From: Tateyamaria pelophila
GTDB lineage: Bacteria; Pseudomonadota; Alphaproteobacteria; Rhodobacterales; Rhodobacteraceae
Direction: 5' to 3'
Length of the DNA stretch: 32,047 bases
NCBI RefSeq assembly: GCF_019966495.1
Contig: NZ_JAIMIA010000055.1
Location: forward strand, 1 to 32,047
Made by a program: the position numbers and the translations under genes. The notes beneath the pieces are model-generated. The model saw only the letters and a program-made list of their open reading frames with translations, had not been told where the DNA came from and ran no database searches. Positions 3,540 to 24,386 of this stretch are shown here, one piece after another (position 1 is the first letter of the stretch; every line of letters begins with the position of its first letter).

Positions 3540-3583
3540 TTTCGGATATCCTTGTTCGTGTCGGTTTTTTTGCGCGGGAGGCG

Positions 3584-7122
<3,539 letters not shown>

Positions 7123-7126
<4 letters not shown>

Positions 7127-8106
7127 AACGAATTTTGATCTTGGGCGGGCGTGGAATGGTGGGTCAGAAACTGGCCAACCATCTGGAAACGCAGGGTTTG
7201 GCGAGTGGCGAGGCCTTTGAGTTGACGCTGCACGACATCGCACCGCCAAGCGACGTCACGGCAGAGGATAACCGACGCCATCTTGTCGGCAATCTCGCGG
7301 TAGCGGCGGAGGGCGCAGCACTTGCTGCGGAACGGTTTGACCTGATCTTTTTTCTTGCCTCGATCGTCTCGGGAGAGGCGGAAACGGATTTTGACAAAGG
7401 CTGGCAGACGAACCTGTGGCCGATGTGGCATTTCCTTGAAGCGTTGCGTGCGCAGCATCGGGCGATGGACGGGGCCTATGTGCCCCGTGTGATCTTCACC
7501 TCGTCGATTGCCGTGTTTGGCGGGCCTTATCCGGACAAGATTTCGGATGAATTCCTGCAATCCCCACAAACGAGTTACGGCGCGCAAAAGGCAGCGTGCG
7601 AATTGATGATCCAGGACTTCAGCCGCAAGGGGTTCATCGATGGCATGTCCCTGCGTCTGCCGACGATCTGCGTGCGGCCCGGCAAGGCAAATCTTGCGGC
7701 CTCGTCGTTCTTTTCCGGGATCATCCGCGAACCGTTAAACGGAGTCGAAGCCATTTTACCCGTGCCCGATACCGTGCGGCACTGGCATGCGTCACCCCGG
7801 TCAGCGGCCGGGTTTCTTGCCCATGCGGCTGGGTTGGATACAGCGCTGTTGGAGGGTCGGCGTGCGCTGAACCTTCCGGGAATCAGTTGCACCGTGGCCG
7901 AACAGATCGAGGCACTGCGGGATGTCGCGGGCAACAACGTGGTCGCTTTGATCAAGCCCCAACCCGACCAGGCGATCGCCAAGATCGTCGAAGGGTGGCC
8001 GCGCAATTTTGCACCTGAACGCGCCAAAGCGCTGGGATTTGTGGCAGAGTCGACGTTCCGGGAGATCATTGACGTGTACATTGAGGATGATCTGCCGGAA
8101 CGGTGA
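7123..8106 (+). CDS. NAD-dependent epimerase/dehydratase family, DenD-like D-erythronate dehydrogenase
   Basis: A 327-residue extended SDR. GGRGMVG at 8-14 is the Rossmann motif, SSIAVFG follows at 127-133, and the YxxxK pair is Tyr152/Lys156 (SYGAQK). The segment ASIVSGEAETDFDKGW at 79-94 is characteristic, as I recall it, of the DenD branch, which oxidises D-erythronate at C2 or C3, rather than of nucleotide-sugar epimerases. It is coupled to the upstream dehydrogenase by a 4-base overlap and faces the GntR gene 40 bases away. The kinase and aldolase that normally complete an erythronate pathway are absent, so the substrate may be a different sugar acid. Family assignment is firm, function moderate. 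Confidence 0.78.
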
Positions 8107-8146
8107 TAAACTCCGGGCGCCACGGTGGGAGATGCCCTGCCGTCCC

Positions 8147-8803
8147 CTAACTTGGTTGCAACGCCGGTCCGTCGATGAGGTGCCGGGCCAGATGGTCGTG
8201 TATTTTGGCGCGGGTCAACGCTTCGTCCCCGGCCATGGCGGCATCCAGGATTTGCTGATGGTGTTTGATATTGCCTGAAATGAAATCAAAGGCGCGGTCT
8301 TCGACCATCAATTGCTGGCGGAAACGACCATAGATCTGTCGATGCGTCGTGATCAGTACGTCCGACCCGCAAGCCGAGATGAGGGTCTCATGAAACTGTC
8401 GTTCGGCTGCGAACCACAGATCGATGAAGGGTTCCGAATCCTTGGAAGTGTGCAGTCGCATTTCAAGGTGGCTGAGCTGGTGGTGCGCGGCGGTCAATTG
8501 CGCCTCCCATGCAACGCCGCCGCGCTTGATCGACATCGCCGTGCCTTCGGCTTCGAGCAGGACGCGCAAATGCGTGAGCTCATGCAACAGGCGCGCAGAT
8601 TTTTCCGGGACACGGAAACCGCGCTGCTCCTGAAACTGGACCAGGCCAAGGGTGGACAGGCGGAACAGAGCCTCGCGGATCGTGCTGGCGGAGCAGTCAA
8701 ATTCCTGCCGCAGATGTTCTGCCCTGACCTTCTCTCCATGCTCAAATCCGTTGGTCATCAAGCGATGGCGCAAGGTTTCAAATATATCTGTTTCGTAGGG
8801 CAT
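8147..8803 (-). CDS. GntR family transcriptional regulator, FCD (FadR-type) effector domain
   Basis: A 218-residue regulator. The winged helix is at about 5-66, with the recognition region CSASTIREALFRLSTLGLV (37-55). An all-helical FCD domain (73-205) binds small acids; likely metal ligands are His138 (QFHETL), His182 (KHHQQI) and His204 (HDHLARH). The frame is open to 8866. I chose the ATG at 8803 because the upstream stretch overlaps direct repeats that look like operator DNA; no clear ribosome site supports either start. FCD regulators commonly respond to uronates and related acids (ExuR, UxuR). It lies divergent from the TRAP operon and is the only regulator in the window. Confidence 0.85.
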   Translation of the reverse strand: MPYETDIFETLRHRLMTNGFEHGEKVRAEHLRQEFDCSASTIREALFRLSTLGLVQFQEQRGFRVPEKSARLLHELTHLRVLLEAEGTAMSIKRGGVAWEAQLTAAHHQLSHLEMRLHTSKDSEPFIDLWFAAERQFHETLISACGSDVLITTHRQIYGRFRQQLMVEDRAFDFISGNIKHHQQILDAAMAGDEALTRAKIHDHLARHLIDGPALQPS

Positions 8804-8849
8804 TTGAGCATTCAGAAATTTCGTTGATCGTAAATGTGTAAAGCGCAAA

Positions 8850-8880
8850 ATCACGAAATTCCACACAAATCACGAAATTC
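8850..8880. promoter_or_regulatory. Tandem direct repeats upstream of dctP and the GntR gene, candidate operators
   Basis: ATCACGAAATTC occurs perfectly at 8850-8861 and again at 8869-8880, a 19-base period that puts the copies on nearly the same helical face. Partial relatives flank them: GCCGAAATTTCA at 8881-8892, and GAAATTTCGTTGAT at 8815-8828 in the reverse orientation. They sit in the divergent region between the GntR gene and the TRAP operon. Binding by the adjacent GntR protein is the simplest inference. Confidence 0.5.
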
Positions 8881-9002
8881 GCCGAAATTTCATTTTTTTG
8901 TTGTCGTAAGGGGGCGTCTCCGACTAGCCTTTGGTTACTTTGTGCGGAAGGCGGGCAAGAGACCCTCTAATTTGCACGTAAAAAATGTCTGGGAGGATGA
9001 TC

Positions 9003-10028
9003 ATGACATTCATTAAGAAGGCGGCGTCCATCGCCGTTGCAACGGCACTTGTGGCAGGCACGGCGATGTCCGCCAGTGCACAGCAAACCAAGCTGCGTAT
9101 TCAGACGCATTACGCACCCGAGACGGTCTCGGGACGGTTGGCGGCCCAATATATCGAAGATATTCAGTTGATGTCCGGCGGCGAAATCGAAGTAGAGATG
9201 TTCTACAGTTCGTCAGTCGTGAAGTCGGTCGAAACATTCGACGCGGCGGCCACGGGTATCCTTGATTGTGACATGACAGGCGGTGCCTATCAGACCGGCA
9301 AGAACTCGGCGTTTCAGTTCGTGGGCGACATCATGGGCGGCTATGAGACTCCCTATCAGCAGCTCAGCTGGCTCTACTACGGCGGCGGCCTCGAAGCGGC
9401 GGCACCCTTGTACAACAAATACGGCATGGAATTGATCGGTTGGTGGGTCTATGGGCAGGAAAGCTTTGCCTCCTCCAAGCCAATCGCTAAAGTTGCAGAC
9501 TTCGAAGGTTGGAAATTCCGGTCGCCCCCCGGCATGGAAACCAAGATATTCGAGAAATTGGGCGCCTCGCCCATCGTGATGGACTTTACCGAAATCTTCA
9601 CCGCCCTGGAAACCGGTATCATCGACGGTGCGGACGCATCAGGCCTGGCCAACAATGTCGGTCTCGGCCTCTATGACATCGTCGGCTACGCGAATTTCCC
9701 AGGCTTCCATTCGATGCCTTCCGATCACCTGGCGTGCAACAAGGAAGTGTTTGACGCGATGCCCGAAGCGCATCAACGCATCATGAAGGTTGCCATGGAA
9801 GCACTGGCGCTGCGCACCGCCCTGACCTTCGAAAAGGCCAATGCGGAAGCGGCTGCAATGTTGCGCGAGCAGGGCGTTGTCCTGTCGCAGTGGGAAGCCG
9901 AAGAACTGCAAAAGTTCCGTGACGCAGCGCAGTCTACATGGCCTGAGTTCGCCGATACGCCAGAAGCCAAGGCATTGGTCGAATCGCATATGGCCTACTT
10001 GACCCAGCTTGGTTTCGTATCTCAGTAA
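9003..10028 (+). CDS. dctP: TRAP transporter substrate-binding protein (DctP family)
   Basis: A 341-residue periplasmic receptor for a tripartite ATP-independent transporter. A signal peptide covers residues 1-26 (Lys-rich start, Ala/Val core, ASA cleavage before QQ). KFRSPPG at 171-177 contains Arg173, the family arginine that binds the ligand carboxylate. The loop DGADASGLANN at 208-218 resembles the TakP-type subgroup. The start at 9003 has GGGAGG six bases upstream; earlier ATGs at 8985 and 8997 overlap that site. In context the ligand is probably a uronate, aldonate or other acid sugar. A strong terminator follows, allowing more receptor than membrane subunits. The symbol is a family symbol; the ligand is unproven. 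Confidence 0.9.
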   Translation: MTFIKKAASIAVATALVAGTAMSASAQQTKLRIQTHYAPETVSGRLAAQYIEDIQLMSGGEIEVEMFYSSSVVKSVETFDAAATGILDCDMTGGAYQTGKNSAFQFVGDIMGGYETPYQQLSWLYYGGGLEAAAPLYNKYGMELIGWWVYGQESFASSKPIAKVADFEGWKFRSPPGMETKIFEKLGASPIVMDFTEIFTALETGIIDGADASGLANNVGLGLYDIVGYANFPGFHSMPSDHLACNKEVFDAMPEAHQRIMKVAMEALALRTALTFEKANAEAAAMLREQGVVLSQWEAEELQKFRDAAQSTWPEFADTPEAKALVESHMAYLTQLGFVSQ

Positions 10029-10040
10029 GCGAACCGATCC

Positions 10041-10074
10041 GGGGCTCCGACCATTGTGTTGGAGCCCCTTTTTT
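10041..10074 (+). terminator. Strong intrinsic terminator between dctP and dctQ
   Basis: GGGGCTCC (10041-10048) pairs perfectly with GGAGCCCC (10061-10068), a 12-base loop lies between, and six T residues follow at 10069-10074. It starts 12 bases after the dctP stop, inside a co-directional operon. Partial readthrough would set receptor protein well above the permease subunits. Confidence 0.85.
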
Positions 10075-10130
10075 GCCGTAAAACGCGCCTTTGTCGCGCA
10101 AGGGCATGTCCACTACAGGGGGTATTTCTG

Positions 10131-11021
10131 ATGCAGGCGCGCTCCGGCACTCCGGTTGAATGGCTTGTGCCATTGGCTTTTATTTTCTGCGCGGGGTGGG
10201 TGATCTGGCATATGCCTGCCTTTACCCTCGACTTTTATCCGCCTTCGGATCCGTCAGAATTTGACAAGCTCTCCGCTTTGTTTGGACGCATTGACGTCAG
10301 TTCCGGCATGGGCGGACTGTTTGGCGGGTTTGCCGATATCTTTGATTGGGCCGCTCTGATCTGTCTTCCGATTTTTGGCTACATTGGCGTCCGCACCGTG
10401 CGGCGTGCGGGCATGGAGTTTGAAAGCTGGCGCGCAGCCGACCGTCTGGCTGTATTCATCGGCCGTGTCACCATGATGTTGATCGTGTTGTTGACCGGCG
10501 TCATGCTCTACGAAGTCATCTTGCGCTATGTGTTCGAGGCTCCGACCTTGTGGGCAAACGAAATGTCGCTGTGGCTGGCCGGGTTCGTGTTTCTGTGTGC
10601 CGGTCTTTACGCCATGCAACAGCGCAGCCACATCCGTATCGTTTTGCTCTATGATGCCGTCCCTCGCTGGGTGCAGCGGATATTTGACTGTATCTCGACA
10701 CTCCTGATCGTAACCTTCGCCTTTTTCCTGATCTATGGCGGATACGGCGAAGCCTTCGACAAATTCTATCGTTGGGAAACGTTTGGCACGGCTTTTGACC
10801 CGCCGATTCCCGCAACCCTGAAGCCCATGGTGTTGTTGGTTGTCGGCCTGGTTGCGTTGCAGGCGGTCGTGAACCTGATCTCTGACTGGAACAAGGAAGA
10901 GGTTCACTACGGTGGCGACGATCTGGACGAAGAAGAGATCGAGCGCATCAAGGCCCAGGTCGGTGTGGGTGGCGTCAGCGACATCGATGTAACCGGCCAA
11001 CACGTTTCGGCAAAGGACTGA
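10131..11021 (+). CDS. dctQ: TRAP transporter small permease (DctQ family), N-terminally extended
   Basis: The small membrane subunit of the TRAP transporter, 296 residues with six apparent membrane segments near 11-27, 72-88, 110-130, 145-162, 185-203 and 232-250. The last four form the normal DctQ core, including RYVFEAPTLWANEMSLWLAG from 132. The first two segments and about 100 residues are extra; usual DctQ proteins are 160-200 residues. The C-tail (255-296) is highly acidic. The start at 10131 follows a GGGGG-rich ribosome site, and the codons before it run through the terminator region. It lies four bases before dctM. Confidence 0.85.
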   Translation: MQARSGTPVEWLVPLAFIFCAGWVIWHMPAFTLDFYPPSDPSEFDKLSALFGRIDVSSGMGGLFGGFADIFDWAALICLPIFGYIGVRTVRRAGMEFESWRAADRLAVFIGRVTMMLIVLLTGVMLYEVILRYVFEAPTLWANEMSLWLAGFVFLCAGLYAMQQRSHIRIVLLYDAVPRWVQRIFDCISTLLIVTFAFFLIYGGYGEAFDKFYRWETFGTAFDPPIPATLKPMVLLVVGLVALQAVVNLISDWNKEEVHYGGDDLDEEEIERIKAQVGVGGVSDIDVTGQHVSAKD

Positions 11022-11025
11022 CCCC

Positions 11026-12648
11026 ATGGATATCGGAACCATTTCGCTTGTCCTGATGCTGGGGCTGATCTTGCTCCTGGCCATCGGGATGCCGTTGGGA
11101 CTTGCCTCTGCAATCCTCGCCGTGCTGGTGCTGGTGATGAAGTTCGAGCCGGAATTGCTGCTGGCCCCCTGGACCTTTGGTGACGGCATTTTGACCGGCA
11201 GGCCCGGATCGGGGCCGCTCAACATTCTGGCCCAGAAAATATACGGGCTCTTAACGGACTACGTCCTCATATCCATTCCGCTCTTTATCTTCATGGCGGC
11301 CTTGCTGGAACGCTCGGGCATCGCCAAGGAAATGTACTCCTCGCTGAGTGTCTGGCTGAACCGGACCCGTGGCGGCATCGCCATCGTTACTTCGATCATG
11401 GCCGTGATCATGGCGGCGATGTCCGGGATCATCGGGGGCGAGGTTGTCTTGCTGGGCCTGATCGCGCTGCCGCAGATGTTGCGGCTGGGCTATAACCAGA
11501 ACCTCGCGATCGGTGTGATTTGTGCCAGTGGTTCGCTGGGGACCATGATCCCTCCGTCGATCGTTCTGATCATCTATGGCCTGATCACCGAAACGTCGAT
11601 CAAGGCTCTGTTTACCGCGTCCTTCGTGCCGGGCTTCATGCTCGCCTCCTTCATCATCATCTATATCATCATCCGCACACAACTCCGTCCCGAAGACGCA
11701 CCGCTGCCTGACCCTGTGCCCGGGGAACCTGTGGGCCGCGAAAAGGGAAAATTGTTTCTGGCGTTCATGACGGTTCTGTTTGCCGGGTTCGGAACGGCGT
11801 TGTTCCTGCGCGCAAGCTTCTTTGAATTCTCTGGCTCGAACGCGGCCAATACCGGCGCACCCGCGTTCTGGGGCACGGCAGAGTACATCTGGAGGTTCGG
11901 CATCATGGTGGCCGTGAGCCTCGCGCTGATCTTCTTTTACTTTGGTAAGGAGTTAACGGCGCGGGGCTGGTCTTTGGGCAAGGGTCTCGTGCCACCCATC
12001 GTCGTGATTGGCGTCGTTATGGGCTCGATCTATGGTGGCATCACCGGGATTACCGAGGCCGCTGGCATGGGGGCGATGGCCGTCTTTGTCATCGCGCTCT
12101 TGCGCGGCGAGGCCTCAACGGAACTTGTGTGGGATTCGTTGATGCGGACCCTGAAGTCGACCGGGACCATCATCTGGGTCACTATCGGTGCGGCGACCCT
12201 TGCGGGGGCGTACACCATCGCGGGCGGGCCAACCTATGTGGCCGACTTTATCGTTGGGTCCGAGTTGCCGACGATGTTGGTGATCTTGCTGATGATGTTG
12301 ATCCTGCTGTTTATGGGGGCCTTCATGGACTGGGTCGGCATTGTGTTGCTGATCATTCCGGTGTTCCTGCCCATCGTGCTCAAGTTGCCGCTGGAAGAGA
12401 TTGGTGTGTTTGGCGAGTTGGAACGCCGCCATGTTGCGATCTGGTTCGGTGTGGTATTCTGTATGAATATGCAGGTCAGCTTTTTGTCGCCGCCCTTCGG
12501 TCCGGCTGCCTTCTATCTGAAATCCGTGGCCCCGCCACACATCACGCTGACCGATATCTTCAAGGGCTTCTTGCCCTTCATAGGCATCCAGTTGGTTGCG
12601 CTGTCGGTTCTTCTGATCTGGCCGCCGATCGTCACGCTGCTGCTGTAA
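11026..12648 (+). CDS. dctM: TRAP transporter large permease (DctM family)
   Basis: The large, translocating subunit, 540 residues and almost entirely hydrophobic helices. Family hallmarks are GVICASGSLGTMIPPSIVL (165-183) in the first half and SFLSPPFGPAAFYLKSVAPP near the C-terminus, the two pseudo-symmetric substrate/sodium-site loops. It is longer than the 425-residue type because of an insert around 225-310 containing a charged loop and two helices, as in the larger DctM subclass. It is followed after 12 bases by a PhyH dioxygenase gene. Transport is driven by a sodium or proton gradient. The substrate is presumed to be an acid sugar from context only. Confidence 0.9.
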   Translation: MDIGTISLVLMLGLILLLAIGMPLGLASAILAVLVLVMKFEPELLLAPWTFGDGILTGRPGSGPLNILAQKIYGLLTDYVLISIPLFIFMAALLERSGIAKEMYSSLSVWLNRTRGGIAIVTSIMAVIMAAMSGIIGGEVVLLGLIALPQMLRLGYNQNLAIGVICASGSLGTMIPPSIVLIIYGLITETSIKALFTASFVPGFMLASFIIIYIIIRTQLRPEDAPLPDPVPGEPVGREKGKLFLAFMTVLFAGFGTALFLRASFFEFSGSNAANTGAPAFWGTAEYIWRFGIMVAVSLALIFFYFGKELTARGWSLGKGLVPPIVVIGVVMGSIYGGITGITEAAGMGAMAVFVIALLRGEASTELVWDSLMRTLKSTGTIIWVTIGAATLAGAYTIAGGPTYVADFIVGSELPTMLVILLMMLILLFMGAFMDWVGIVLLIIPVFLPIVLKLPLEEIGVFGELERRHVAIWFGVVFCMNMQVSFLSPPFGPAAFYLKSVAPPHITLTDIFKGFLPFIGIQLVALSVLLIWPPIVTLLL

Positions 12649-12660
12649 ACGAGGCGCATC

Positions 12661-13605
12661 ATGTTAAGCGACACGCAGATCACCGAGTTTCGCACCCAAG
12701 GGTATTTCGCCATGGAAGACGTCATACCCGGTTCGGTGCTGGATGCCATACGCGCAGAGTACGCGGCGCTGATGGACGGGCTCTATGCGGGCTGGCAGGC
12801 AGAGGGGCGGGTGCCGGATGGTGACCCCCTGGATTTTTGGGGCAAGCTGAGTGCGTCCTATGCAGCCGGGTGCGACTGGTTCCAGCCGATGGATATCAGC
12901 CTGCCCGGCGGTGAGATCGCGGCCGATTGCCCGATGCATTTTGGCCCTGCGATCTTTGATCTGGTGGTGCAGGAGCGCCTGTTGGACATCATTCAGGATC
13001 TGATCGGGCCAGAGATCACGTCAAACCCGATCCAGCATGTGCGCATCAAGCCGCCCAGCCCGCAATTGGCCGCAAACGAGGTGCGCGCGCACATCACCAG
13101 CACCGACTGGCATCAGGATCGCGGCGTGGGTCACGAAGATGCAGATGCCACGGACATGATCACGGCCTGGGTCGCCATCACCGACGCCACCGTCGCAAAC
13201 GGGTGCTTGCAAGTGGTGCCCGGCATTGACGATGGGCTGCTGCCCCATTGTCCGCAGGTGCAAACGGCGATTGCGCCACGGCATCTGGATACGACCCGCG
13301 CCGTGCCTTTGCCGGTGAAGGCCGGGGGTGTCGTGCTGTTTCATCCGCTGGTGCCGCATGCGTCGCTGCCGAACACATCTGATGATTTTCGCTGGTCCTT
13401 TGATCTGCGTTATAACGTGACCGGGCAAAGCACCGGACGCGATCATTTCCCCAGCTTTGTCGCCCGCAGCAGGGCCGCGCCCGAAACCGAGTTGCGCGAC
13501 TGGCGCGTCTGGCGTGACGCGTGGTTTTCGGCACGTGACAAACTGGCCGTGTCCCCGCATATTCCGATTCACCGTTGGGCGTCTGACGCCCCTTATTGTG
13601 CGTGA
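12661..13605 (+). CDS. PhyH-type Fe(II)/2-oxoglutarate dioxygenase, first copy
   Basis: A 314-residue protein of the phytanoyl-CoA dioxygenase family. The facial triad is visible as His151 and Asp153 (DWHQDRG) with the distal His233 (LVPHASLPNT), and Arg244 or Arg250 (FRWSFDLRYN) is the likely 2-oxoglutarate anchor, so it should be catalytically competent. Such enzymes hydroxylate or oxidatively demethylate small molecules. The position between dctM and the altronate dehydratase gene (6 bases away) implies a role on the imported sugar acid. It is not needed by any standard hexuronate pathway. Oxidative removal of an O-methyl group is my hypothesis; hydroxylation of another compound is the alternative. 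Confidence 0.85.
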   Translation: MLSDTQITEFRTQGYFAMEDVIPGSVLDAIRAEYAALMDGLYAGWQAEGRVPDGDPLDFWGKLSASYAAGCDWFQPMDISLPGGEIAADCPMHFGPAIFDLVVQERLLDIIQDLIGPEITSNPIQHVRIKPPSPQLAANEVRAHITSTDWHQDRGVGHEDADATDMITAWVAITDATVANGCLQVVPGIDDGLLPHCPQVQTAIAPRHLDTTRAVPLPVKAGGVVLFHPLVPHASLPNTSDDFRWSFDLRYNVTGQSTGRDHFPSFVARSRAAPETELRDWRVWRDAWFSARDKLAVSPHIPIHRWASDAPYCA

Positions 13606-13611
13606 GCCCCC

Positions 13612-15111
13612 ATGGATTTCATCCGACTAGACCCGACCGATACCGTTGTGACTGCTACCCGTGCGCTTGAGGTTGGCGTTCCGATCGACGGGGCATCCAC
13701 ACGTGCGTTGATCCCATCCGGGCACAAGATCGCAACCCGCGATATGGCTGTTGGCGATGTCATTCGTAAGTACGCGCAGGTCATTGGATATGCGGCGCAG
13801 CCCATTGTGGCGGGTGATCATGTGCATACGCATAACGTGGAATTTCGCGGCACCGACGTGGCCTATGAATATGGGACGAACCTACGCCCTGCCACTCGGG
13901 CAACAGGCGACACGTTCATGGGTTATCGCCGCGAGAACGGGCAGGTGGGCACGCGGAACTACATCGCGATTGTCACCTCGGTCAACTGTTCGGCGACGGC
14001 GGCACGCATGATTGCGTCGAATTTCACGCCCGAAGTTCTGGCGGACTACCCCAATGTTGACGGTGTTGCTGCGTTTGTCCACGGAACCGGTTGTGGCATG
14101 GCCGGTGATGGTGATGGGTTCGAGGCGCTGCAACGGGTCATGTGGGGCTATGCGGCGCATCCCAACCACGCGGGCGTTTTGATGGTCGGCCTGGGGTGCG
14201 AGATGAACCAGATCGACTGGCTGCTTGAGGCCTGGGGACTGAAACAGGGGCCGACATTTCAGACAATGAACATACAGTCTGTTGCAGGCCTGCGCCAGAC
14301 AATCGAAAAGGGCATCGAGAAAGTGGCCGCAATGCTGCCGATCGCAAATGCGGCGCAGCGGACGGAATGCCCGGCGTCGGACCTGAAGGTGGCGCTTCAA
14401 TGCGGCGGCTCGGACGCGTGGTCCGGGATTACGGCAAACCCGGCATTGGGCTATGCCACGGACCTGTTGGTGGCGCAGGGCGGCACCGGTGTGCTGGCCG
14501 AAACGCCGGAAATTTACGGGGCGGAGCATCTGTTGACCGCTCGCGCCGTGGACCGTGCGACTGGCGACCGGCTGATTGACCTGATCCATTGGTGGGAGGA
14601 TTACACCGCCCGCAACAAGGGCTCGATGGACAACAACCCAAGCCCCGGAAACAAGACCGGTGGTCTGACCACGATCCTTGAAAAGTCTCTGGGGGCGGCA
14701 GCCAAGGGCGGAACGACACCGCTGACCGGCGTCTACAAATACGCAGAGATTGTACGGGCCAAGGGCTTCACCTTTATGGACAGCCCCGGCTACGACCCGG
14801 CCTCGGTTACCGGTCAGATCGCGGGCGGATGCAATCTGGTGTGCTTCACGACCGGGCGCGGATCGGCCTTTGGATCCAAACCTGCCCCGACGATCAAGGT
14901 TGCCACGAACACAGAGATGTTCAACCGGATGACCGAAGACATGGACGTAAACGCAGGCGCCATGATGACCGACGGCGTCTCTCTCGAAGACAAGGGCCGC
15001 GAGATTTACGAGTTGTTCTTGCGCGTGGCGTCTGGCGAAATGTCCAAGTCCGAAGCGCAGGGCCTTGGCGACTATGAGTTCGTCCCATGGCAGATTGGTG
15101 CGGTGATGTAA
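13612..15111 (+). CDS. uxaA: UxaA/GarD family altronate dehydratase
   Basis: A 499-residue dehydratase, close to the length of characterised UxaA. An N-terminal SAF domain (about 10-76, ending AGDHVHTHN) is followed by the large GarD-type domain beginning YRRENGQVGTRNY (105-117), with Cys126 (SVNCSATA) and HGTGCGM (157-163, Cys161). UxaA converts D-altronate to 2-keto-3-deoxygluconate in the galacturonate branch, with iron or manganese. KDG would go to the kinase encoded later in this operon. Galactarate-type or other sugar-acid dehydratase activity is possible, because UxaA and GarD share this fold. A dedicated tagaturonate reductase is not obvious in the window. Confidence 0.87.
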   Translation: MDFIRLDPTDTVVTATRALEVGVPIDGASTRALIPSGHKIATRDMAVGDVIRKYAQVIGYAAQPIVAGDHVHTHNVEFRGTDVAYEYGTNLRPATRATGDTFMGYRRENGQVGTRNYIAIVTSVNCSATAARMIASNFTPEVLADYPNVDGVAAFVHGTGCGMAGDGDGFEALQRVMWGYAAHPNHAGVLMVGLGCEMNQIDWLLEAWGLKQGPTFQTMNIQSVAGLRQTIEKGIEKVAAMLPIANAAQRTECPASDLKVALQCGGSDAWSGITANPALGYATDLLVAQGGTGVLAETPEIYGAEHLLTARAVDRATGDRLIDLIHWWEDYTARNKGSMDNNPSPGNKTGGLTTILEKSLGAAAKGGTTPLTGVYKYAEIVRAKGFTFMDSPGYDPASVTGQIAGGCNLVCFTTGRGSAFGSKPAPTIKVATNTEMFNRMTEDMDVNAGAMMTDGVSLEDKGREIYELFLRVASGEMSKSEAQGLGDYEFVPWQIGAVM

Positions 15112-16007
15112 TGGAATGCCTGAGCGCCGTACAGAAAGCGCATTTCGAAGAACACGGGTATTTGCTGGTCGAAAACCAGGTTCCGCCCGACTGGCTGACG
15201 AAAATCCGCGACGAAATCTCACGATTCGAGGCCGAAGCCGCCACGATGACCGAGAGCAACGAGCGGCTTGATCTCGAAGACAGTCATACGACTGACGAGC
15301 CGCGCCTGCGCCGGATCAAACTGCCGCATACAATTTCGGACGTGATGCGGGAGCTAATGTATTCCGATCATGTACTGGCCCCCGCCCGTGATCTGATCGG
15401 CCCGAACCTGCGCTTGCATACAACCAAGCTGAACATGAAATCAGCCGGTTACGGGGCGGCCGTTGAGTGGCATCAGGACTATGCGTTCTATCCCCACACC
15501 AATGATGACATCCTTGCCATTGGCATTTGCATTGATGACATGGCCGCTGAAAACGGGCCGCTGATGGTCTATCCCGGCTCGCACAAAGGGCCGGTCTATG
15601 ACCATCACGTCGACGGCGTTTTTGCAGGTGCGATGCTGCCCCAGGAAAACGGCCTGAACTCGGCGGACGCGGTGCAACTGACCGGCCCGGCCGGGTCGAT
15701 CAGCATTCATCACGGGCGGATTGTCCATGGGTCTGCCCTCAACCGTTCTGATCGTGCGCGGCGCATTTTGTTTTACGAGATGATGGCCGCGGATGCTTTT
15801 CCGATCATGGGCAGCATGACGAAATGGGATGGCATCGAGGATTACAACACGCGGATGCTGTGTGGTGAGGCGACCTTGACGCCGCGGCTCAAGGATATAC
15901 CCATCCGCATTCCACAACCGCAACCGGATGTGCCGATATCGATCTATGAAATTCAAAAGGGCCTGAAATCGCGGGCTTTCGATACAATTCCGTCCAAGGA
16001 GACATGA
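15111..16007 (+). CDS. PhyH-type Fe(II)/2-oxoglutarate dioxygenase, second copy
   Basis: A 298-residue phytanoyl-CoA dioxygenase family protein, only distantly similar to the copy at 12661. The iron ligands are His121 and Asp123 (VEWHQDY) with His206 in RIVHGSALNRSDRARR; the arginines that follow could bind 2-oxoglutarate. MVYPGSHKGPVYDHH at 152-166 is the usual loop after the core strand. The start at 15111 shares a base with the uxaA stop (TAATG), so translation is coupled. The pair of intact dioxygenases flanking uxaA suggests two related substrates or two successive oxidations. Function beyond Fe/2OG oxidation is inferred. Confidence 0.86.
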   Translation: MECLSAVQKAHFEEHGYLLVENQVPPDWLTKIRDEISRFEAEAATMTESNERLDLEDSHTTDEPRLRRIKLPHTISDVMRELMYSDHVLAPARDLIGPNLRLHTTKLNMKSAGYGAAVEWHQDYAFYPHTNDDILAIGICIDDMAAENGPLMVYPGSHKGPVYDHHVDGVFAGAMLPQENGLNSADAVQLTGPAGSISIHHGRIVHGSALNRSDRARRILFYEMMAADAFPIMGSMTKWDGIEDYNTRMLCGEATLTPRLKDIPIRIPQPQPDVPISIYEIQKGLKSRAFDTIPSKET

Positions 16008-16008
16008 G

Positions 16009-16896
16009 ATGAGCAAACCTACAATCGGATTTATCGGGCTTGGCCTGATGGGCGGAGCAATGGTCGGCCGTTTGCAGGATCAGGGCTATGCCCTGACAGT
16101 AATCGCCAACCGGACACGGACATATGTGGATCAGGCGGTTGCACGCGGTGCAACCGAAGTAAAAACGGCCAAGGCCGTTGCCGAAGCGTCCGATATCATC
16201 ATGCTCTGCATGGATACATCCGCCAATGTCGAAGCCCGGATGCACGGAGAAGACGGCGTGATCGCTGGCCTCAAACCGGGTGCTGTGGTGATCGACTTCG
16301 GGACGTCCTTGCCCGGTTCAACCCGCGCATTGGGCGATGAAGTGGCCGCCGCCGGGGGGCATTATCTGGACGCGCCGCTGGGCCGCACGCCCAGCCACGC
16401 CAAAGACGGTTTGCTCAACATCATGTGCGCGGGCGACGAGGCTGCCTTTGCCAAGGTGCGCCCCGTGCTGGATGATCTGGGTGAGAACGTCTTTCACCTA
16501 GGCGCACTGGGATCAGGGCACACCATCAAACTGATCAACAACTTCTTCGGGATGACCGTGGCCAATGCCATGGCCGAAGCCTTTGCGATGGCCGATGTGG
16601 CGGGTGTGCCCCGGCAGGACCTTTATGATGTGATGGCTGCGGGTCCGCTCAAGTCCGGCATGATGGATTTTGTGAAGGGCTACGGCGTGGACGGTGACCC
16701 CAACCAACTGGCCTTTGCGATCAAGAATGCGGCCAAAGACGTCGGGTATTACGCGCAAATGGCATCAGATGCTGGCGTCGAGTCGGTCATGTCAAAAGGC
16801 GCGTTGGCGGCTTTGAGCGAAGCACGCGACAGCGGCCGTGCCGATGATATGGTTTCGCAAATGGTCGATTTCTACGCCGACAAGTTCAAAGGCTAA
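16009..16896 (+). CDS. Beta-hydroxyacid dehydrogenase with a YihU-like GRT motif
   Basis: A 295-residue NAD(P)-dependent dehydrogenase of the 3-hydroxyisobutyrate family. GLGLMG at 10-15 binds cofactor, Lys174 is the catalytic lysine, and Asn177/Asn178 follow (IKLINNFF). The usual PVSGG substrate motif is replaced by PLGRTPSHAKDG (123-134) with Arg126. The E. coli sulfolactaldehyde reductase YihU has a similar VGRT segment and KLINN. AAGGAG lies seven bases before the ATG, and the start is one base from the preceding stop. It may act on a semialdehyde or sugar acid carrying an extra anionic group. The substrate is undetermined. Confidence 0.85.
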   Translation: MSKPTIGFIGLGLMGGAMVGRLQDQGYALTVIANRTRTYVDQAVARGATEVKTAKAVAEASDIIMLCMDTSANVEARMHGEDGVIAGLKPGAVVIDFGTSLPGSTRALGDEVAAAGGHYLDAPLGRTPSHAKDGLLNIMCAGDEAAFAKVRPVLDDLGENVFHLGALGSGHTIKLINNFFGMTVANAMAEAFAMADVAGVPRQDLYDVMAAGPLKSGMMDFVKGYGVDGDPNQLAFAIKNAAKDVGYYAQMASDAGVESVMSKGALAALSEARDSGRADDMVSQMVDFYADKFKG

Positions 16897-16900
16897 GCCA

Positions 16901-17794
16901 TTGGCCATCGCCGCCCAGGCCACACAAGACCGCGCGACACTTGGGATTGTGATGACCCTGGGGGCGTATGTATTTTTCGCCATGATCGACACGTCGGTGA
17001 AGTGGCTTGTGTTGGCGGGTCTGCCGGCGTTTCAACTGGCATTCATGCGGTATTTGCCGCATTTTGTGATCTCGACCGTGCTTTTGCTGCGCAAGGGCGA
17101 TGGGTGGAACAGCTTTCAATCCGCCCATATGGGCCTGGTTTTCTTGCGGGCGTTTCTTTTGGCATCGGCGACGTTGTTCAACTTCATCACGCTCAATTAC
17201 CTGTCGCTGACCGTGACCGGATCGATCATGTTTTCGGCGCCGGTGGTCGTGTGCGCCCTGTCCTGGCCATTGCTCGGAGAGCGGGTCGGCCCGTGGCGAT
17301 GGTTTGCCATTATCCTCGGGTTCATGGGGGTGCTGGTGGTCATCCGGCCCTTTGATGCGGCCTTTCACTGGATCGCGCTGCTCAATGTCTACAACGCATT
17401 TTCGCTGGCGCTTTATTCGATCATTACGCGAAAGATATCAGGGATCGTCGCCCCCGAGACGATGCAATTCTACATGGGCGCATTCGGGGCGATTACGCTC
17501 TTTCCGTTCGCATGGTGGGTCTGGACGCCACCGGCAAACGGATTGGAGTGGGGTGTGATGGTGGCACTTGGCCTATGGGGCTGGGCCGGGCACGAGATTT
17601 TTTCGCGCGCGCATCTCTATGCACCTGCGAATACGCTGATGCCCTACACATACAGCTTTCTGCTGTACCTCGCGGTTGCCAGCTATTTTGTTTTTGACGA
17701 TGTGCCGGATCAATGGACGATGCTGGGGGCGTCGATCATCGTGATGTCCGGGCTGATTATTTGGCGGCGCACCGCCAGAAAGGACATCGCATGA
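16901..17794 (+). CDS. EamA (DMT superfamily) transporter
   Basis: A 297-residue inner-membrane protein with about ten hydrophobic helices in two EamA repeats, as usual for the drug/metabolite transporter superfamily. I favour the TTG at 16901, which has AAAGG eight bases upstream and starts four bases after the preceding stop. An ATG at 16952 would place the start at the edge of the first helix, and one at 16838 would lie inside the upstream gene. It overlaps kdgK by 4 bases. The family exports or imports small metabolites; here it might export a toxic intermediate or import a second sugar acid. The start is the least certain point. Confidence 0.8.
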   Translation: MAIAAQATQDRATLGIVMTLGAYVFFAMIDTSVKWLVLAGLPAFQLAFMRYLPHFVISTVLLLRKGDGWNSFQSAHMGLVFLRAFLLASATLFNFITLNYLSLTVTGSIMFSAPVVVCALSWPLLGERVGPWRWFAIILGFMGVLVVIRPFDAAFHWIALLNVYNAFSLALYSIITRKISGIVAPETMQFYMGAFGAITLFPFAWWVWTPPANGLEWGVMVALGLWGWAGHEIFSRAHLYAPANTLMPYTYSFLLYLAVASYFVFDDVPDQWTMLGASIIVMSGLIIWRRTARKDIA

Positions 17795-18669
17795 AAGTTG
17801 CTGCGATTGGCGAGGCGATGATCGAGCTGTCGATGGATGGCGATACGGCGGCGGTCGGCGTGGCGGGCGATACGCTGAATTCTGCGATCTACCTCAAGCG
17901 GTCCGCGCCGGATATTCAGGTGGATTACGTCACCCGACTTGGAGCAGAGCCGTTTTCCCGCAAGATCCATGATTTTATCGCGGCACAAGACGTCGGGACA
18001 GGCGCGATTGAGACTGACCCGGATGGCACGCCGGGCCTTTACGCGATCACCACGGATGCAAGCGGCGAACGCTCTTTCACTTATTGGCGAGACCGTGCGG
18101 CCGCGCGTTCCGTTTTCACGGGACCGGGCGGGCCGGATTTTTCCGTGTTGGAGGGGTATGACGTTGTCTACTTGTCCGGCATTTCGCTCGCCATTTTGCC
18201 CGAACAGACGCGGGGCGCGCTGATGAATTGGCTGGGTGGATTTCGGGAAGGTGGTGGGCGGGTCGTCTATGACAGCAATTACCGCCCGCGCCTTTGGCAG
18301 GACAAAGCGACGGCGCAAGCGGTGAACGCCGCGATGTGGGCGTTGTCGGACATTGCCCTGCCGTCGATTGATGACGAACAGGCGATCACGGGCGAAAGCG
18401 CCGATGCAGTTGCCGCCCGCTTTGTGGCGATGGGCAAGACCGGCGCGTTAAAACGTGGGCCGTCCGGGCCACTCTGTCTCGCGACGGGGACCTTCGGCGA
18501 TTATGTCCCCGCGCTCCGTGTCGTCGATACAACCGCAGCGGGCGACAGTTTCAATGGCGCTTATCTGGGTGCCGTGCTGAGCGGTTTGGATCAGGCGGCG
18601 GCCTTGCAGGCGGGCCATGATCTGGCCGCCCGCGTTGTGGGCCATAAAGGGGCGATCCTGCCCGCTTAG
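17791..18669 (+). CDS. kdgK: 2-keto-3-deoxygluconate kinase (PfkB family)
   Basis: A 292-residue sugar kinase that phosphorylates KDG to KDPG. The N-terminal GEAMIELSMDG (7-17), the KDG-kinase type SFTYWRD (95-101) and DSNYRPRLW (161-169), and the PfkB signature DTTAAGDSFNGAYL (246-259) with catalytic Asp252 are all present. The ATG at 17791 overlaps the upstream stop (ATGA). It joins the uxuA and uxaA branches, both of which yield KDG. KDPG aldolase is not in the window. It converges on uxuB with a 4-base tail overlap. Confidence 0.92.
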   Translation: MKVAAIGEAMIELSMDGDTAAVGVAGDTLNSAIYLKRSAPDIQVDYVTRLGAEPFSRKIHDFIAAQDVGTGAIETDPDGTPGLYAITTDASGERSFTYWRDRAAARSVFTGPGGPDFSVLEGYDVVYLSGISLAILPEQTRGALMNWLGGFREGGGRVVYDSNYRPRLWQDKATAQAVNAAMWALSDIALPSIDDEQAITGESADAVAARFVAMGKTGALKRGPSGPLCLATGTFGDYVPALRVVDTTAAGDSFNGAYLGAVLSGLDQAAALQAGHDLAARVVGHKGAILPA

Positions 18670-19856
18670 CTTGCCCCGATCAGAGCGCGCAACGCGGCGT
18701 CAGGGTCGCTTGATGTGCAGGCTTTGAGGATCTCATCGGCCCTTGGGTCGTCTAGCGTGCGGCCCTCCGCGACCTCTTGTTGCACGAAGGCTATCCACGC
18801 CGTGACCGCCGCGGTCAGGGCAGGGCTGTCTACTCCGGATCTGTCGGTCAGCGTGGCCAAGATGCGGATCGGCAATTTTTGGCTGCCGTCCATGGCGATC
18901 TGGCGCAGACGGTGATGGAGGTTCGGGTTCTCGAACCTTGCGATCAGGGCCGCGGCATAGTCCTTGGCTTGGCGCTGGACATCGGCGGGCAAAGTAGCAG
19001 CGGCCTCTGTCATGATTCCCGACGCGCCTGCGCGCAGGACCGGATCGGCGATGGCCTCATGTACGAATGTGTGGCCGCGCAGTACCCCGGCATAGGCCAG
19101 ATAGGAATGTGCGCCGTTGAGCATCCGCAATTTGCGCATCTCGTGGGGAGCGACGTCCGATACCCATTGGACGCCGGGCCAGTCGGGGCGGGGTGCGGCA
19201 AAATCGTCGTCGATGACCCATTCGGTGAACCCTTCGGTGGGCACGGCCATGTCATCACCGGCTTCGCCCCGGATTGCGTCTGTCGTTGCAGGTGTGATCC
19301 GATCGACCATGCAGGACGGGTAGGTGACAGTGGCACGGATCGTCAGGTTGGCCGCTTTGGCAAAGGCTTTTATTGCATCACCAAGTTTGCGCCCGTTGTC
19401 CGGCAGGTTATCACAAGACAGCACGGTGACAGGTGTTGTGCGACCCGCCAGCCCGCGCACCAGAGCACCGATCGGCGTCAGGCTGCCGCCATCAATGTCG
19501 GCGCGAATGGCCGGGTTATTCTTGTCCAAAGCCCCATCGGAGGCGAGGCAGTACGCTTTCTCTGTCACCGTCAGGGTGATGACGTCGACCGCGGGGTCGG
19601 AAATGGCGGAAATGACCGCCATCGGGTCCTCGGTCATCACCAACATGCCATCGAGACAGGTGATCCTTTCGATTTTTGTCCCGGCGGCGTCCTTGATCAC
19701 AAGCGAATAGGTGTAATCCTGCGCAGCTAGGCGATCCCGGACCGCACCGGAGCGAAAGCTGACACCGGTGACCCGCCAATCGGGGCAACGTTGCGTGTAC
19801 CAAGCCTGATGGGCGCGAAAAAAGTTGCCGACCCCAAGGTGCAGAATACGTGGCAT
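18666..19856 (-). CDS. uxuB: Mannitol dehydrogenase family, probable D-fructuronate reductase
   Basis: A 396-residue polyol-specific long-chain dehydrogenase. The cofactor motif HLGVGNFFRAHQ is at 6-17, TVTEKAY at 96-102, and the catalytic group KLRMLNGAH gives Lys242, Asn247 and His250 in the family spacing. UxuB reduces D-fructuronate to D-mannonate with NADH. It is shorter than typical UxuB or mannitol dehydrogenase (about 480-490), chiefly at the N-terminus, but the core is complete. The ATG is 2 bases past the uxaC stop, in a uxaC-uxuB operon. Tagaturonate reductase or D-arabinitol/mannitol activity remains possible; context favours fructuronate. Confidence 0.86.
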   Translation of the reverse strand: MPRILHLGVGNFFRAHQAWYTQRCPDWRVTGVSFRSGAVRDRLAAQDYTYSLVIKDAAGTKIERITCLDGMLVMTEDPMAVISAISDPAVDVITLTVTEKAYCLASDGALDKNNPAIRADIDGGSLTPIGALVRGLAGRTTPVTVLSCDNLPDNGRKLGDAIKAFAKAANLTIRATVTYPSCMVDRITPATTDAIRGEAGDDMAVPTEGFTEWVIDDDFAAPRPDWPGVQWVSDVAPHEMRKLRMLNGAHSYLAYAGVLRGHTFVHEAIADPVLRAGASGIMTEAAATLPADVQRQAKDYAAALIARFENPNLHHRLRQIAMDGSQKLPIRILATLTDRSGVDSPALTAAVTAWIAFVQQEVAEGRTLDDPRADEILKACTSSDPDAALRALIGAS

Positions 19857-19858
19857 GT

Positions 19859-21214
19859 TTATCCCAGTTTATAGGTGTTGCGCGCCAGATCCGTCGCCAG
19901 AAGTCCCGCGAGCATTTCGGCGCTGGATTTTGAAAAATACCCCCGGTCAACCTGCTCCGCCAGATGCAGGCTAACCGAACGGCGCCACAAATCATGACGC
20001 GCCGGGATCGACAGGAATGCCCGTGTATCATCATTGAAGCCTGCGAGGTTCCAGTATCCGGCCGTTTCGACGACCTGATCGAAATAGCGCGCGATGCCTG
20101 CCGCACTGTCGTGAAACCACCACGGTGGCCCGATCCGCAGACAGGGCCAATGCCCGGCCATCGGGGCCAGTTCGCGCGCGTACGTGGTTTCGTCCAGAGT
20201 GAACAGGATCAGCGTCAGGTCCGGATTGTTGCCAACGCGATTGAGCAAAGGCTCCAGTCCGCGCACCCAATCGGTGGGCACAGGGATATCGGCCCCCATA
20301 TCGCGCCCAAACGCATCCTTGATCGCGTGATTTGTGTTGCGGCGACTGCCTGCATGCAACTGCATCACGAGGCCGTCCTCGATCGACATTTGCGCCATTT
20401 CCACCAGCATATGCCCGTGAAAGGCCGCTGCATGTGTCATATCGCCCGCCATCAGCTGATCAAAAACCGCGCCGGGGGCATCCAGCCAGCACAGGTTAGG
20501 CATCTCGATGGCGTGATCTGTGGCCGTCGCTCCCATCGCCTTAAAGAACGCGCGGCGCGTGCGCAGCGCCTCAACGTAACCGGGGAATGTTTGTGTATCC
20601 TGCTGGGTCAGGCGGCCAAGGCGCATGACCGCATCCGCCCATCCTTGCATATGTGGATCAAGCACGGCGTCCGGCCGGAAGGTGGGAACCACCCGGCCAG
20701 CCCAGTCCGACTGCTGGATGGTGGCATGGTCGTCCAGCGGGTCCAGCGCACCATCCGTCGTCGCCAGCACTTCGATATCAAAGCGGTCAAACAAGGCGCG
20801 GGGTGTATTGGCCGGATTTCCGACCCATTCGGCAATCTGGTCATAGAGATCATTCGCCGTTTCCGGACCAAGAGGAGTGTCGGATCCGATTGTTTCTTCC
20901 AGCACGTAGGTCATCCAGGTCGCGCTGGGTGTGCCCAGAAACAGATGCCAGTGATCCGCGAGGATTTGGAAGATGCGGCGTGGGTCGCGGCGCTCGGGAG
21001 CAACGCCAATCCCAAGATCGGTCAGGGGGACGCCCTGGGAATACAGCATCCGGAACACGTAGTGATCCGGGATTACCAACAGCTCTGCGGGGTTCGCAAA
21101 GGCTGCGTTCGTGGCAAACCATGCGGGGTCACAATGCCCATGGGGAGAGACGATGGGTGCGTCCTTAATGCCCTCGTAAAGCGTGCCCGCCAGTCCTGAA
21201 AGTTGCCTCGCCAT
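19859..21214 (-). CDS. uxaC: Glucuronate isomerase (uronate isomerase)
   Basis: A 451-residue amidohydrolase-fold isomerase that converts D-glucuronate to D-fructuronate (and galacturonate to tagaturonate). HGHCDP at 25-30 supplies metal-binding His25 and His27. The C-terminal region with WNLAGFNDDTRAFLSIPARHDLWRR is typical of UxaC. The ATG at 21214 has GGAGGA six bases upstream; the in-frame ATG at 21220 directly abuts that site. The frame stays open far upstream only as antisense to the divergent gene. It is the first gene of the uxaC-uxuB operon and diverges from the Gfo/Idh/MocA operon across 90 bases. Confidence 0.93.
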   Translation of the reverse strand: MARQLSGLAGTLYEGIKDAPIVSPHGHCDPAWFATNAAFANPAELLVIPDHYVFRMLYSQGVPLTDLGIGVAPERRDPRRIFQILADHWHLFLGTPSATWMTYVLEETIGSDTPLGPETANDLYDQIAEWVGNPANTPRALFDRFDIEVLATTDGALDPLDDHATIQQSDWAGRVVPTFRPDAVLDPHMQGWADAVMRLGRLTQQDTQTFPGYVEALRTRRAFFKAMGATATDHAIEMPNLCWLDAPGAVFDQLMAGDMTHAAAFHGHMLVEMAQMSIEDGLVMQLHAGSRRNTNHAIKDAFGRDMGADIPVPTDWVRGLEPLLNRVGNNPDLTLILFTLDETTYARELAPMAGHWPCLRIGPPWWFHDSAAGIARYFDQVVETAGYWNLAGFNDDTRAFLSIPARHDLWRRSVSLHLAEQVDRGYFSKSSAEMLAGLLATDLARNTYKLG

Positions 21215-21255
21215 GTCCATTCCTCCGATTTCGGGCGAACCTACCACGAATGGGT

Positions 21256-23346: not shown

Positions 23347-24386
23347 TCCGGGTCGCTGTTCTTGGTGGCGGGATTGGAGCGCAACACCTTGAGGCCTACC
23401 GGGCTTTGCCGGAGTTTCAAGTGGATATGCTTGTGGATCAGGATCAAGCTCGGCTCGAAGCGCTGGCAACGGGGGATATCCGCCGTGCGACCGATATACA
23501 GGCCGCATTGGATGCGGACGTGGATGTTATCGACATTTGCTTGCCGCCCCGCCTGCACGCGCCAATTGCGCAAGAGGCGTTGCAGGCTGGCAAACACGTG
23601 ATCTGCGAGAAGCCGCTTGCGACGTCGCTGGCCCAGATCGATGCCCTCAGGGAGGCGGTGCAAGTATCAGGCCGCCAGATTTTCCCGGTGTTTCAATACC
23701 GGTTTGGGCCCGGCTTTTCCCGGTTGCAGACATTGCGCGCCGCCAGATTCACCGGTGCGCCACGGGCCGCGGCGATTGAAACGCATTGGAACCGTGGGTC
23801 TGACTACTACGCCATTCCGTGGCGTGGCACCTGGGCCGGGGAGCAGGGTGGTGCAATCCTGGGTCATGCCATCCATGCGCACGATTTGGTCGCACATTTC
23901 ATGGCGCCTGTTGTCGCGGTGAGCGCCCGCCTCGGCACGCTCATCAACCCGATCGAGACGGAGGATACGGCGGCGTTGATTTTCGAGTTGGAAGGTGGTG
24001 GGTTGGTTACGAGTTCCGTGACGCTCGGGGCTGCGCGTGACGAAACGCGGCTGAGATTTGTCTATGAGCATATGACAGTGACGTCGGATACGACTCCGTA
24101 TGCGCCAAGCGAAGGGGTTTGGCAATTCCTAGCGCGCGATGCTGATCAGCAGAGCGCTATCGATACTGCCATTGACAACACGACACCCGATTTGTCGGGC
24201 TTCTGTGGGTTCTTATCAGAGGTGGCCAACGCGATTGCGGGGCAGCCGAACCGAGCGGTGACATTTGACGACGGCGCGGCCTCCATCGCTTTGGTGACCG
24301 CAATTTACGAGGCGCACCGCAGCGGTGCACGGGTGGAATTGCCTTTGGCGACGAATCACTCTCTTTGGCAAGGATGGCAACCATGA
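23343..24386 (+). CDS. Gfo/Idh/MocA family oxidoreductase, third
   Basis: A 347-residue member starting at GTG 23343, overlapping the previous stop by 4 bases. GGGIGAQH at 8-15 is the cofactor loop, EKP at 89-91 carries Lys90, and GGAILGHAIHAHD at 169-181 holds His178 and Asp181. The segment RGSDYYAIPWRGTW (151-164) is similar in pattern to the first copy, so these two may act on related substrates. The next gene, uxuA, begins inside its last codons. Sugar or sugar-acid oxidoreductase is the firm level of assignment. Confidence 0.85.
   Translation: MIRVAVLGGGIGAQHLEAYRALPEFQVDMLVDQDQARLEALATGDIRRATDIQAALDADVDVIDICLPPRLHAPIAQEALQAGKHVICEKPLATSLAQIDALREAVQVSGRQIFPVFQYRFGPGFSRLQTLRAARFTGAPRAAAIETHWNRGSDYYAIPWRGTWAGEQGGAILGHAIHAHDLVAHFMAPVVAVSARLGTLINPIETEDTAALIFELEGGGLVTSSVTLGAARDETRLRFVYEHMTVTSDTTPYAPSEGVWQFLARDADQQSAIDTAIDNTTPDLSGFCGFLSEVANAIAGQPNRAVTFDDGAASIALVTAIYEAHRSGARVELPLATNHSLWQGWQP

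Follow-up and report, generated by a model that had tools for sequence, protein, structure and literature searches.

Why should a gene cluster for the breakdown of sugar acids carry two oxygenases, when, to our knowledge, textbook uronate breakdown contains no such step? The question is raised by a stretch of 32,047 nucleotides from Tateyamaria pelophila (assembly GCF_019966495.1, contig NZ_JAIMIA010000055.1, positions 1 to 32,047; hereafter the window). In this stretch, two genes for Fe(II)/2-oxoglutarate (2OG) oxygenases of the PhyH family, PhyH1 and PhyH2, lie either side of a gene of the altronate/galactarate dehydratase family (UxaA). The answer proposed here is that in roseobacter-type bacteria the pair probably prepares sugar acids after their import, by trimming or oxidising them, for the usual enzymes; both oxygenases have the appearance of accessory enzymes that tailor the sugar acids which the cell takes up.

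The oxygenase pair and its linkage to the dehydratase

On the evidence of their sequences, PhyH1 and PhyH2 are intact Fe(II)/2OG oxygenases. The original prediction, made from the letters of the window alone, had described them as such, and its description is borne out: both reading frames are confirmed, both products exceed the PF05721 gathering cut-off of 22 bits (scores in Table 1), and both have a PhyH-type fold. The iron triads that it named (His151/Asp153/His233 in PhyH1 and His121/Asp123/His206 in PhyH2) are invariant among the aligned relatives (18/18 and 25/25, respectively). The same is true of an arginine 11 residues past the distal histidine (R244 in PhyH1, 18/18; R217 in PhyH2, 25/25), which we take to be the usual 2OG-binding arginine of PHYH. 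The list of open reading frames (ORFs) offers an alternative in-frame start for PhyH2 at 15087; the earlier residue numbering fits the start used here. AlphaFold models have pLDDT values of 79.9 for PhyH1 and 71.7 for PhyH2, the latter with low-confidence stretches within residues 116-131 and 227-269. Between PhyH1 and the UxaA-family gene there is a gap of 6 bases, as originally stated, whereas the ‘one-base junction’ between that gene and PhyH2 is really an overlap of one base (TAATG, in which the final A of the stop codon TAA is the A of the ATG).

Two specialised functions within the family were considered and rejected. SyrB2-type halogenases have the triad Asp replaced, leaving room for chloride; PhyH1 retains Asp153 and scores 48 of 226 bits on TIGR01762. 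For PhyH2, the candidate was the ectoine hydroxylase EctD, on whose model (TIGR02408) it reaches 86.9 of 336.5 bits. The genome (5.65 Mb) contains five PhyH matches; one of the others, on contig C258 (locus L092, 440-8022), lies near genes that by eye encode a LacI regulator, a sugar-type ABC transporter, a Gfo/Idh protein and a TIM-barrel isomerase, so that this genome may contain a further sugar-linked PhyH.

The gene between the two oxygenases had been called an altronate dehydratase. The family is right, and the assignment is predicted to hold at that level only. All the expected domains are present (SAF, and the second and C-terminal domains of GD_AH; PF08666, PF04295 and PF20629), the score on the galactarate dehydratase model TIGR03248 is 365.6 of 730.85 bits, and the closest PDB entry is GarD (6u7l). 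It is the sole GD_AH_C match in the genome.

The linkage of PhyH1 to UxaA, and of UxaA to PhyH2, is real. The survey behind this covers 394 genomes, roughly one for each genus of the window's family; PhyH1 occurs in 68 of them, PhyH2 in 36, a diverged form (PhyH2b) in 35, and the UxaA subfamily in 107 among the matches listed (above about 849 bits; 200 genomes have any match). PhyH2 and PhyH2b were separated by score (485 and up, and 285-327, respectively), and a match had to reach E 1e-50 for PhyH1, or 1e-70 for PhyH2, to be counted. Of 70 PhyH1 matches, 48 have UxaA no more than 500 bp away, and every one of the 48 is upstream of it on the same strand; chance would give roughly 0.08 such close pairs in the 59 genomes that have both genes, if a genome size of 4.3 Mb is assumed. 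Of the PhyH2 genes, 22/36 are found downstream of a same-strand UxaA at a distance of at most 3 kb. At the level of whole genomes, 59 have both PhyH1 and UxaA, 9 PhyH1 only, 48 UxaA only and 278 neither (Fisher p about 9e-31, a rough value since the species are related). A search of related genomes for this neighbourhood had been put forward as a way to refute the original prediction, and its outcome did not refute it. The nearest named loci are those of Tateyamaria, with PhyH2 93% identical, and junctions are short or overlapping. DctM, a permease of the tripartite ATP-independent periplasmic (TRAP) type, is immediately upstream of PhyH1 in 52 of the 64 PhyH1 genes examined. A class-wide sample has a PhyH1 match in 3/385 genomes, one of them the window's own; PhyH1 follows DctM in both others.

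Optional oxygenases and exchanged dehydratases

Gene neighbourhoods were compared in 138 loci (80 + 20 + 38), whose sources overlap (e.g. L030 and L140 share one PhyH2). The first set comprises the best 80 of 185 loci and is biased toward close relatives, and 38 loci were picked for carrying PhyH2 or PhyH2b; the figures thus count loci, not independent genomes. Genes in the fetched loci were called with our own codon-usage caller, and GntR, short-chain dehydrogenase/reductase (SDR), LysE, AzlCD and transketolase genes were named by eye or by similarity.

The oxygenases appear to be optional accessories, because 32/107 UxaA genomes (UxaA genomes among the matches listed) have no match to PhyH1, PhyH2 or PhyH2b, and because five loci (L114-L118) keep the TRAP genes, UxaA and the dehydrogenase gene HIBADH2 with both oxygenases absent. 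PhyH1 alone lacks a match in 48 of the same 107.

The dehydratase beside the oxygenases is exchangeable by predicted family, being a UxaA, a relative of the enolase-superfamily cycloisomerases or a member of the IlvD/EDD family. One representative of each exchanged type was run against PDB or NCBIfam, and resemblance to that representative, or to the window gene, served to assign the rest. The L046 copy belongs to the 3,6-anhydro-L-galactonate cycloisomerase family (548 bits to 5xd7; one copy tested). The L054 copy belongs to the galactarolactone cycloisomerase family (314 bits to 4ggb; one copy tested), with 285 bits to 5olc, which is a 3,6-anhydro-D-galactonate cycloisomerase according to the available part of PMC5698469. 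The islands of Silicimonas and Boseongicola (L046, L054, L057, L059 and L061) have a relative of the 3,6-anhydro-L-galactonate cycloisomerase (tested in L046) together with a zinc alcohol dehydrogenase, an SDR, TRAP genes, PhyH1 and PhyH2, and no UxaA in the stretch.

As for the third family, the L148 copy scores 1068 bits on the L-arabinonate dehydratase model (cut-off 882) and stands beside PhyH2 in an operon (4104-12177) with the order IlvD-PhyH2-DapA-RraA-FAH-aldehyde dehydrogenase-KdgD-like. A similar gene order is seen in L149 (571-8361) and, in part, in L145 (4064-8425) and L146 (123-2919). The PhyH2 relatives of these four loci are 60-65% identical and lie directly after an IlvD/EDD dehydratase, the cut-off test having been made on L148 only. 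L148 is a putative pentonate setting for the same oxygenase; since PhyH2 there adjoins an L-arabinonate dehydratase, its substrate would not be tied to glucuronate.

A dehydratase of one of the listed families lies within 6 kb of 56/64 PhyH1, 72/102 PhyH2 and 15/22 PhyH2b genes. Lone PhyH2 genes of Roseibium, Ruegeria and Granulosicoccaceae nest within the UxaA-linked part of a tree built from the 117 of 124 sequences retained by length, in which bootstrap values were unsettled, long branches were flagged and the gathering fork is weak (84/38); their isolation therefore looks derived there. Outside the window's family, two Skermanella plasmids have a PhyH2 relative (46% identity) whose neighbours are TRAP genes and sugar-acid enzymes, e.g. 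galactonate dehydratase. A uronate dehydrogenase-type gene is added in L101, L102 and L112 (250-294 bits for the L102 copy, with which the others cluster). Two further optional genes, c22 and c24 (9 loci each, e.g. L079, L081 and L082), flank PhyH2 in some islands; the former is of the quinate/shikimate-dehydrogenase family and the latter, named by eye, is FAD-oxidase-like, and knowing what they act on would help in naming the pathway.

The proposed chemistry and its rivals

Four features, namely the position at the transporter end, the optionality, the tolerance of different dehydratases and the occurrence in both hexonate- and pentonate-type settings, are best explained by a tailoring enzyme that acts on the acid once imported. 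The simplest account of optionality and of independence from the dehydratase is that an O-substituent is removed, and the preferred chemistry is O-dealkylation, chiefly O-demethylation, to which a rough probability of 0.4 is given. The TRAP transporter, named by homology, would import the sugar acids. PhyH1 and PhyH2 would then oxidise a decorated sugar acid with Fe(II), O2 and 2OG, the substrate class being suggested by the neighbouring genes. The ether carbon would be hydroxylated, and breakdown of the hemiacetal would leave the hydroxyl free and release an aldehyde, for instance formaldehyde. The freed sugar acid could be dehydrated by the dehydratase of the strain (UxaA, enolase-superfamily cycloisomerase relative or IlvD/EDD), the 2-keto-3-deoxy acid could leave through KdgK or an SDR-FAH arm, and formaldehyde might pass to the glutathione-dependent dehydrogenase of the genome. 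As a tentative generalisation, at rather less than even odds, these genes may form a modular O2-dependent entry route in which two PhyH subfamilies strip or oxidise substituents (e.g. O-methyl) on TRAP-imported uronates and aldonates, recombined with three unrelated dehydratase families, and so open a methylated or anhydro pool closed to the textbook pathways.

Oxidative demethylation had been suggested from the outset. It has gained a precedent for PhyH enzymes acting on a sugar (in the accessible text of PMC12709175), and it meets a rival in the recurrent HIBADH partner discussed below. The specific substrate first suggested, 4-O-methylglucuronate from xylan, is not supported: the genome has no Pfam match for GH115 (GH67 was not searched), the nearest PDB relatives of the binding protein DctP (4pe3 and 2zzv, whose names carry no ligand, then the ketoacid-binding 7ug8 and the lactate-binding 7e9y) indicate no such ligand, and L148 offers a pentonate setting. 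The objection that no gene for formaldehyde detoxification is visible in the window is weakened because the genome carries a glutathione-dependent formaldehyde dehydrogenase (605 bits against a cut-off of 544); it keeps some force in that a dehydrogenase of this type was found in 0 of the 138 loci checked, which is the first of several points that weigh against the preferred chemistry.

The others are as follows. No methylated substrate or ligand was identified by this analysis. Linkage is incomplete: 20/70 PhyH1 matches are not within 3 kb of the UxaA subfamily, 9/68 PhyH1 genomes lack that subfamily, 14/36 PhyH2 genes are not within 20 kb of it, and no listed dehydratase comes within 6 kb of 30/102 PhyH2 genes, some of which stand among unrelated genes; since several of the loci so scored are short or truncated by a contig end, adjacency counts there are lower bounds. 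The demethylase PHYHD1 is second-best among the PDB profile matches of PhyH1 (47 bits) and eighth for PhyH2 (52 bits), and in structure comparison several other PhyH-family enzymes equal or surpass it for both. A plasmid of Pantoea dispersa (L159, 11068-15395) has adjoining genes of the PhyH2-like (35% identity) and PhyH1-like (40%) kind; next come genes for a B12-binding radical SAM protein and an O-methyltransferase of the TylF/MycF type, and the whole resembles a biosynthetic cluster. Finally, a HIBADH-family dehydrogenase, which demethylation would not need, is directly downstream of PhyH2 in 49/102, and PhyH2b directly follows a HIBADH of its own in 16/22, usually with an SDR.

This recurrence is what speaks for the main rival, in which the carbon skeleton of a sugar acid, unsubstituted or deoxy, would be hydroxylated or oxidised by PhyH2 (and PhyH1), after which HIBADH2 would finish the oxidation or reduce the product to a stereoisomer or keto acid that the dehydratase accepts. 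We regard this relay as somewhat unlikely. HIBADH2 is present in the PhyH-free islands L114-L118 and is therefore not a dedicated partner; moreover, ordinary dehydrogenases could oxidise alcohols without O2, and no deoxy or other candidate substrate can be named. The three dehydratase families have a 2-keto-3-deoxy product in common, and as PhyH2 or PhyH2b adjoins all three, it could be argued that PhyH2 acts after dehydration, on that shared product, and would be compatible with each of the three. Such an order is improbable, given that KdgK and the SDR-FAH arm could already handle these products, that no need for oxygenation is known, and that the place of PhyH1 directly after the transporter (52/64) points to an early step for PhyH1.

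It is more improbable still that PhyH2 is a 2'-O-methyl nucleoside demethylase, like FJS/PHYHD1, carried in sugar islands by chance. PhyH2 is in the same Pfam family as the tested demethylases, and in a metagenome-assembled genome of Granulosicoccaceae (L067, 6448-10870) it lies 49 bp after genes for an ABC ATPase and two BPD_transp_2 permeases; yet these ABC genes match NCBIfam models below cut-off only, so that no nucleoside link is shown, a sugar-acid dehydratase is near 72/102 PhyH2 genes, and in the tree the lone copies of Roseibium, Ruegeria and Granulosicoccaceae fall inside the UxaA-linked part, albeit at the weakly supported fork. That the oxygenases are hitchhikers with no role in the pathway, as lone PhyH2 copies among unrelated genes might suggest, deserves very little credence in view of the fixed order and strand of the close pairs (48/48 for PhyH1-UxaA and 22/22 for UxaA-PhyH2), the short or overlapping junctions and the invariant catalytic residues.

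The island and its relation to known systems

PhyH1 and PhyH2 are predicted members of a uronate/sugar-acid catabolic island (Table 1), the setting in which they had originally been placed, with TRAP genes upstream and KdgK-, UxaB-, UxaC- and UxuA-type genes downstream. Curated cut-offs are passed by UxaC, UxuA and DenD; the UxaA-, UxaB-, KdgK- and HIBADH2-type genes are assigned at family level only. DctQ has no NCBIfam match at the limit used and owes its name to position and size. The island also holds Gfo/Idh genes between UxaC and UxuA, and HIBADH1 beside DenD and a companion arm that recurs, whole or in part, beside TRAP-UxaA in L114-L118. By eye, nucleotide-sugar dehydrogenase genes are seen at both ends of the island (236-1564 and 28616-29917; one UDP-glucose dehydrogenase-like and a second one). 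An FAD amine-oxidase-like gene and a ChrR-type cupin, also named by eye, overlap by 4 bases on the minus strand (29951-31677), with no link to the oxygenases seen.

Table 1. Predicted genes of the sugar-acid island in the window.
Feature	Position	Strand	Remarks
Companion arm: 2-hydroxyacid dehydrogenase, FAH hydrolase, IlvD/EDD dehydratase, SDR	1772-6126	-	NF053535 428 bits, below 500; PRK13017 1005 bits, over 684; SDR named by eye
DenD D-erythronate dehydrogenase	7123-8106	+	NF043036 344 bits, over cut-off 325
GntR-type regulator	8147-8866	-	Divergent from TRAP genes; named by eye; >40% identical relative in 42/80 loci
TRAP substrate-binding protein DctP	8985-10028	+	NF037995 92 bits, over cut-off 50
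TRAP permeases DctQ and DctM	10056-12648	+	DctM TIGR00786 240 bits, below cut-off 268
PhyH1, Fe(II)/2OG oxygenase	12661-13605	+	314 aa; PF05721 94 bits
UxaA-family (SAF and GD_AH) sugar-acid dehydratase	13612-15111	+	499 aa; PF20629 337 bits, PF04295, PF08666
PhyH2, second Fe(II)/2OG oxygenase	15111-16007	+	298 aa; PF05721 129 bits
HIBADH2, beta-hydroxyacid dehydrogenase family	16009-16896	+	2-hydroxy-3-oxopropionate reductase 156 bits, below cut-off 397
EamA transporter family protein	16922-17794	+	PF00892 79.5 bits; start chosen by us, ORF open from 16838
KdgK-like 2-keto-3-deoxygluconate kinase	17788-18669	+	NF052444 270 bits, below cut-off 400; start chosen by us
UxaB/fructuronate reductase-like, mannitol dehydrogenase family	18666-19856	-	NF011611 241 bits, below 603; PF01232/PF08125
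UxaC glucuronate isomerase	19859-21220	-	NF002794 459 bits, over cut-off 387; putative start
UxuA mannonate dehydratase	24365-25573	+	TIGR00695 437 bits, over cut-off 200

Sugars that are methylated or capped in some other way are frequent in the organic matter of algae and plants, and few uncapping enzymes are known. If the preferred chemistry is true, one roseobacter-type gene module would explain how capped sugar acids are opened for catabolism, and two oxygenase subfamilies would gain a function. Chemistry aside, conserved oxygenases around which three unrelated dehydratases are swapped make up a clear genomic pattern that can be tested.

Among known systems, the hexuronate (Ashwell) pathway (UxaC, UxaB/UxuB, UxaA, UxuA and KdgK) is represented in the island by UxaC and UxuA, both over their cut-offs, and by the UxaA-, UxaB- and KdgK-like genes, which miss their best-matched equivalog cut-offs; unlike that pathway, the island adds TRAP uptake, two PhyH oxygenases, HIBADH and several Gfo/Idh genes. 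EctD, the leucine hydroxylase GriE and the proline hydroxylase H11 act on amino-acid-type substrates, and we know of no sugar-acid linkage for any of them; PhyH2 misses the EctD equivalog (87 of 336.5 bits). Closer in reaction type are FJS/PHYHD1, which, in the accessible text of PMC12709175, are PhyH enzymes that demethylate 2'-O-methyl nucleosides with release of formaldehyde, the ribose-contact residues of human PHYHD1 being K102, H105, Q139 and W277. They share with the window pair the PF05721 Fe/2OG family and the HxD...H triad, and sugar O-demethylation is the reaction type proposed here, whereas the window pair has sugar-acid neighbours and resembles PHYHD1 only modestly (profile scores of 47 and 52 bits). 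In marine bacteria, according to the available part of PMC10033563, a cytochrome P450 demethylates 6-O-methyl-D-galactose; this too is oxidative removal of an O-methyl group from an algal sugar with release of formaldehyde, but by a haem P450 on a neutral sugar rather than a PhyH oxygenase on a sugar acid. Next to the PhyH genes, UxaA is replaced or joined by relatives of enzymes from the 3,6-anhydrogalactonate and galactarolactone cycloisomerase pathways (PMC5698469); no PhyH oxygenase is named in the available part of that source. A full-text search of the open literature gave, among the matches listed, no description of PhyH oxygenases recurring in sugar-acid islands whose dehydratase is exchangeable. 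The parts are all of known families; what appears to be new is the combination of PhyH oxygenase, sugar-acid island and exchangeable dehydratase.

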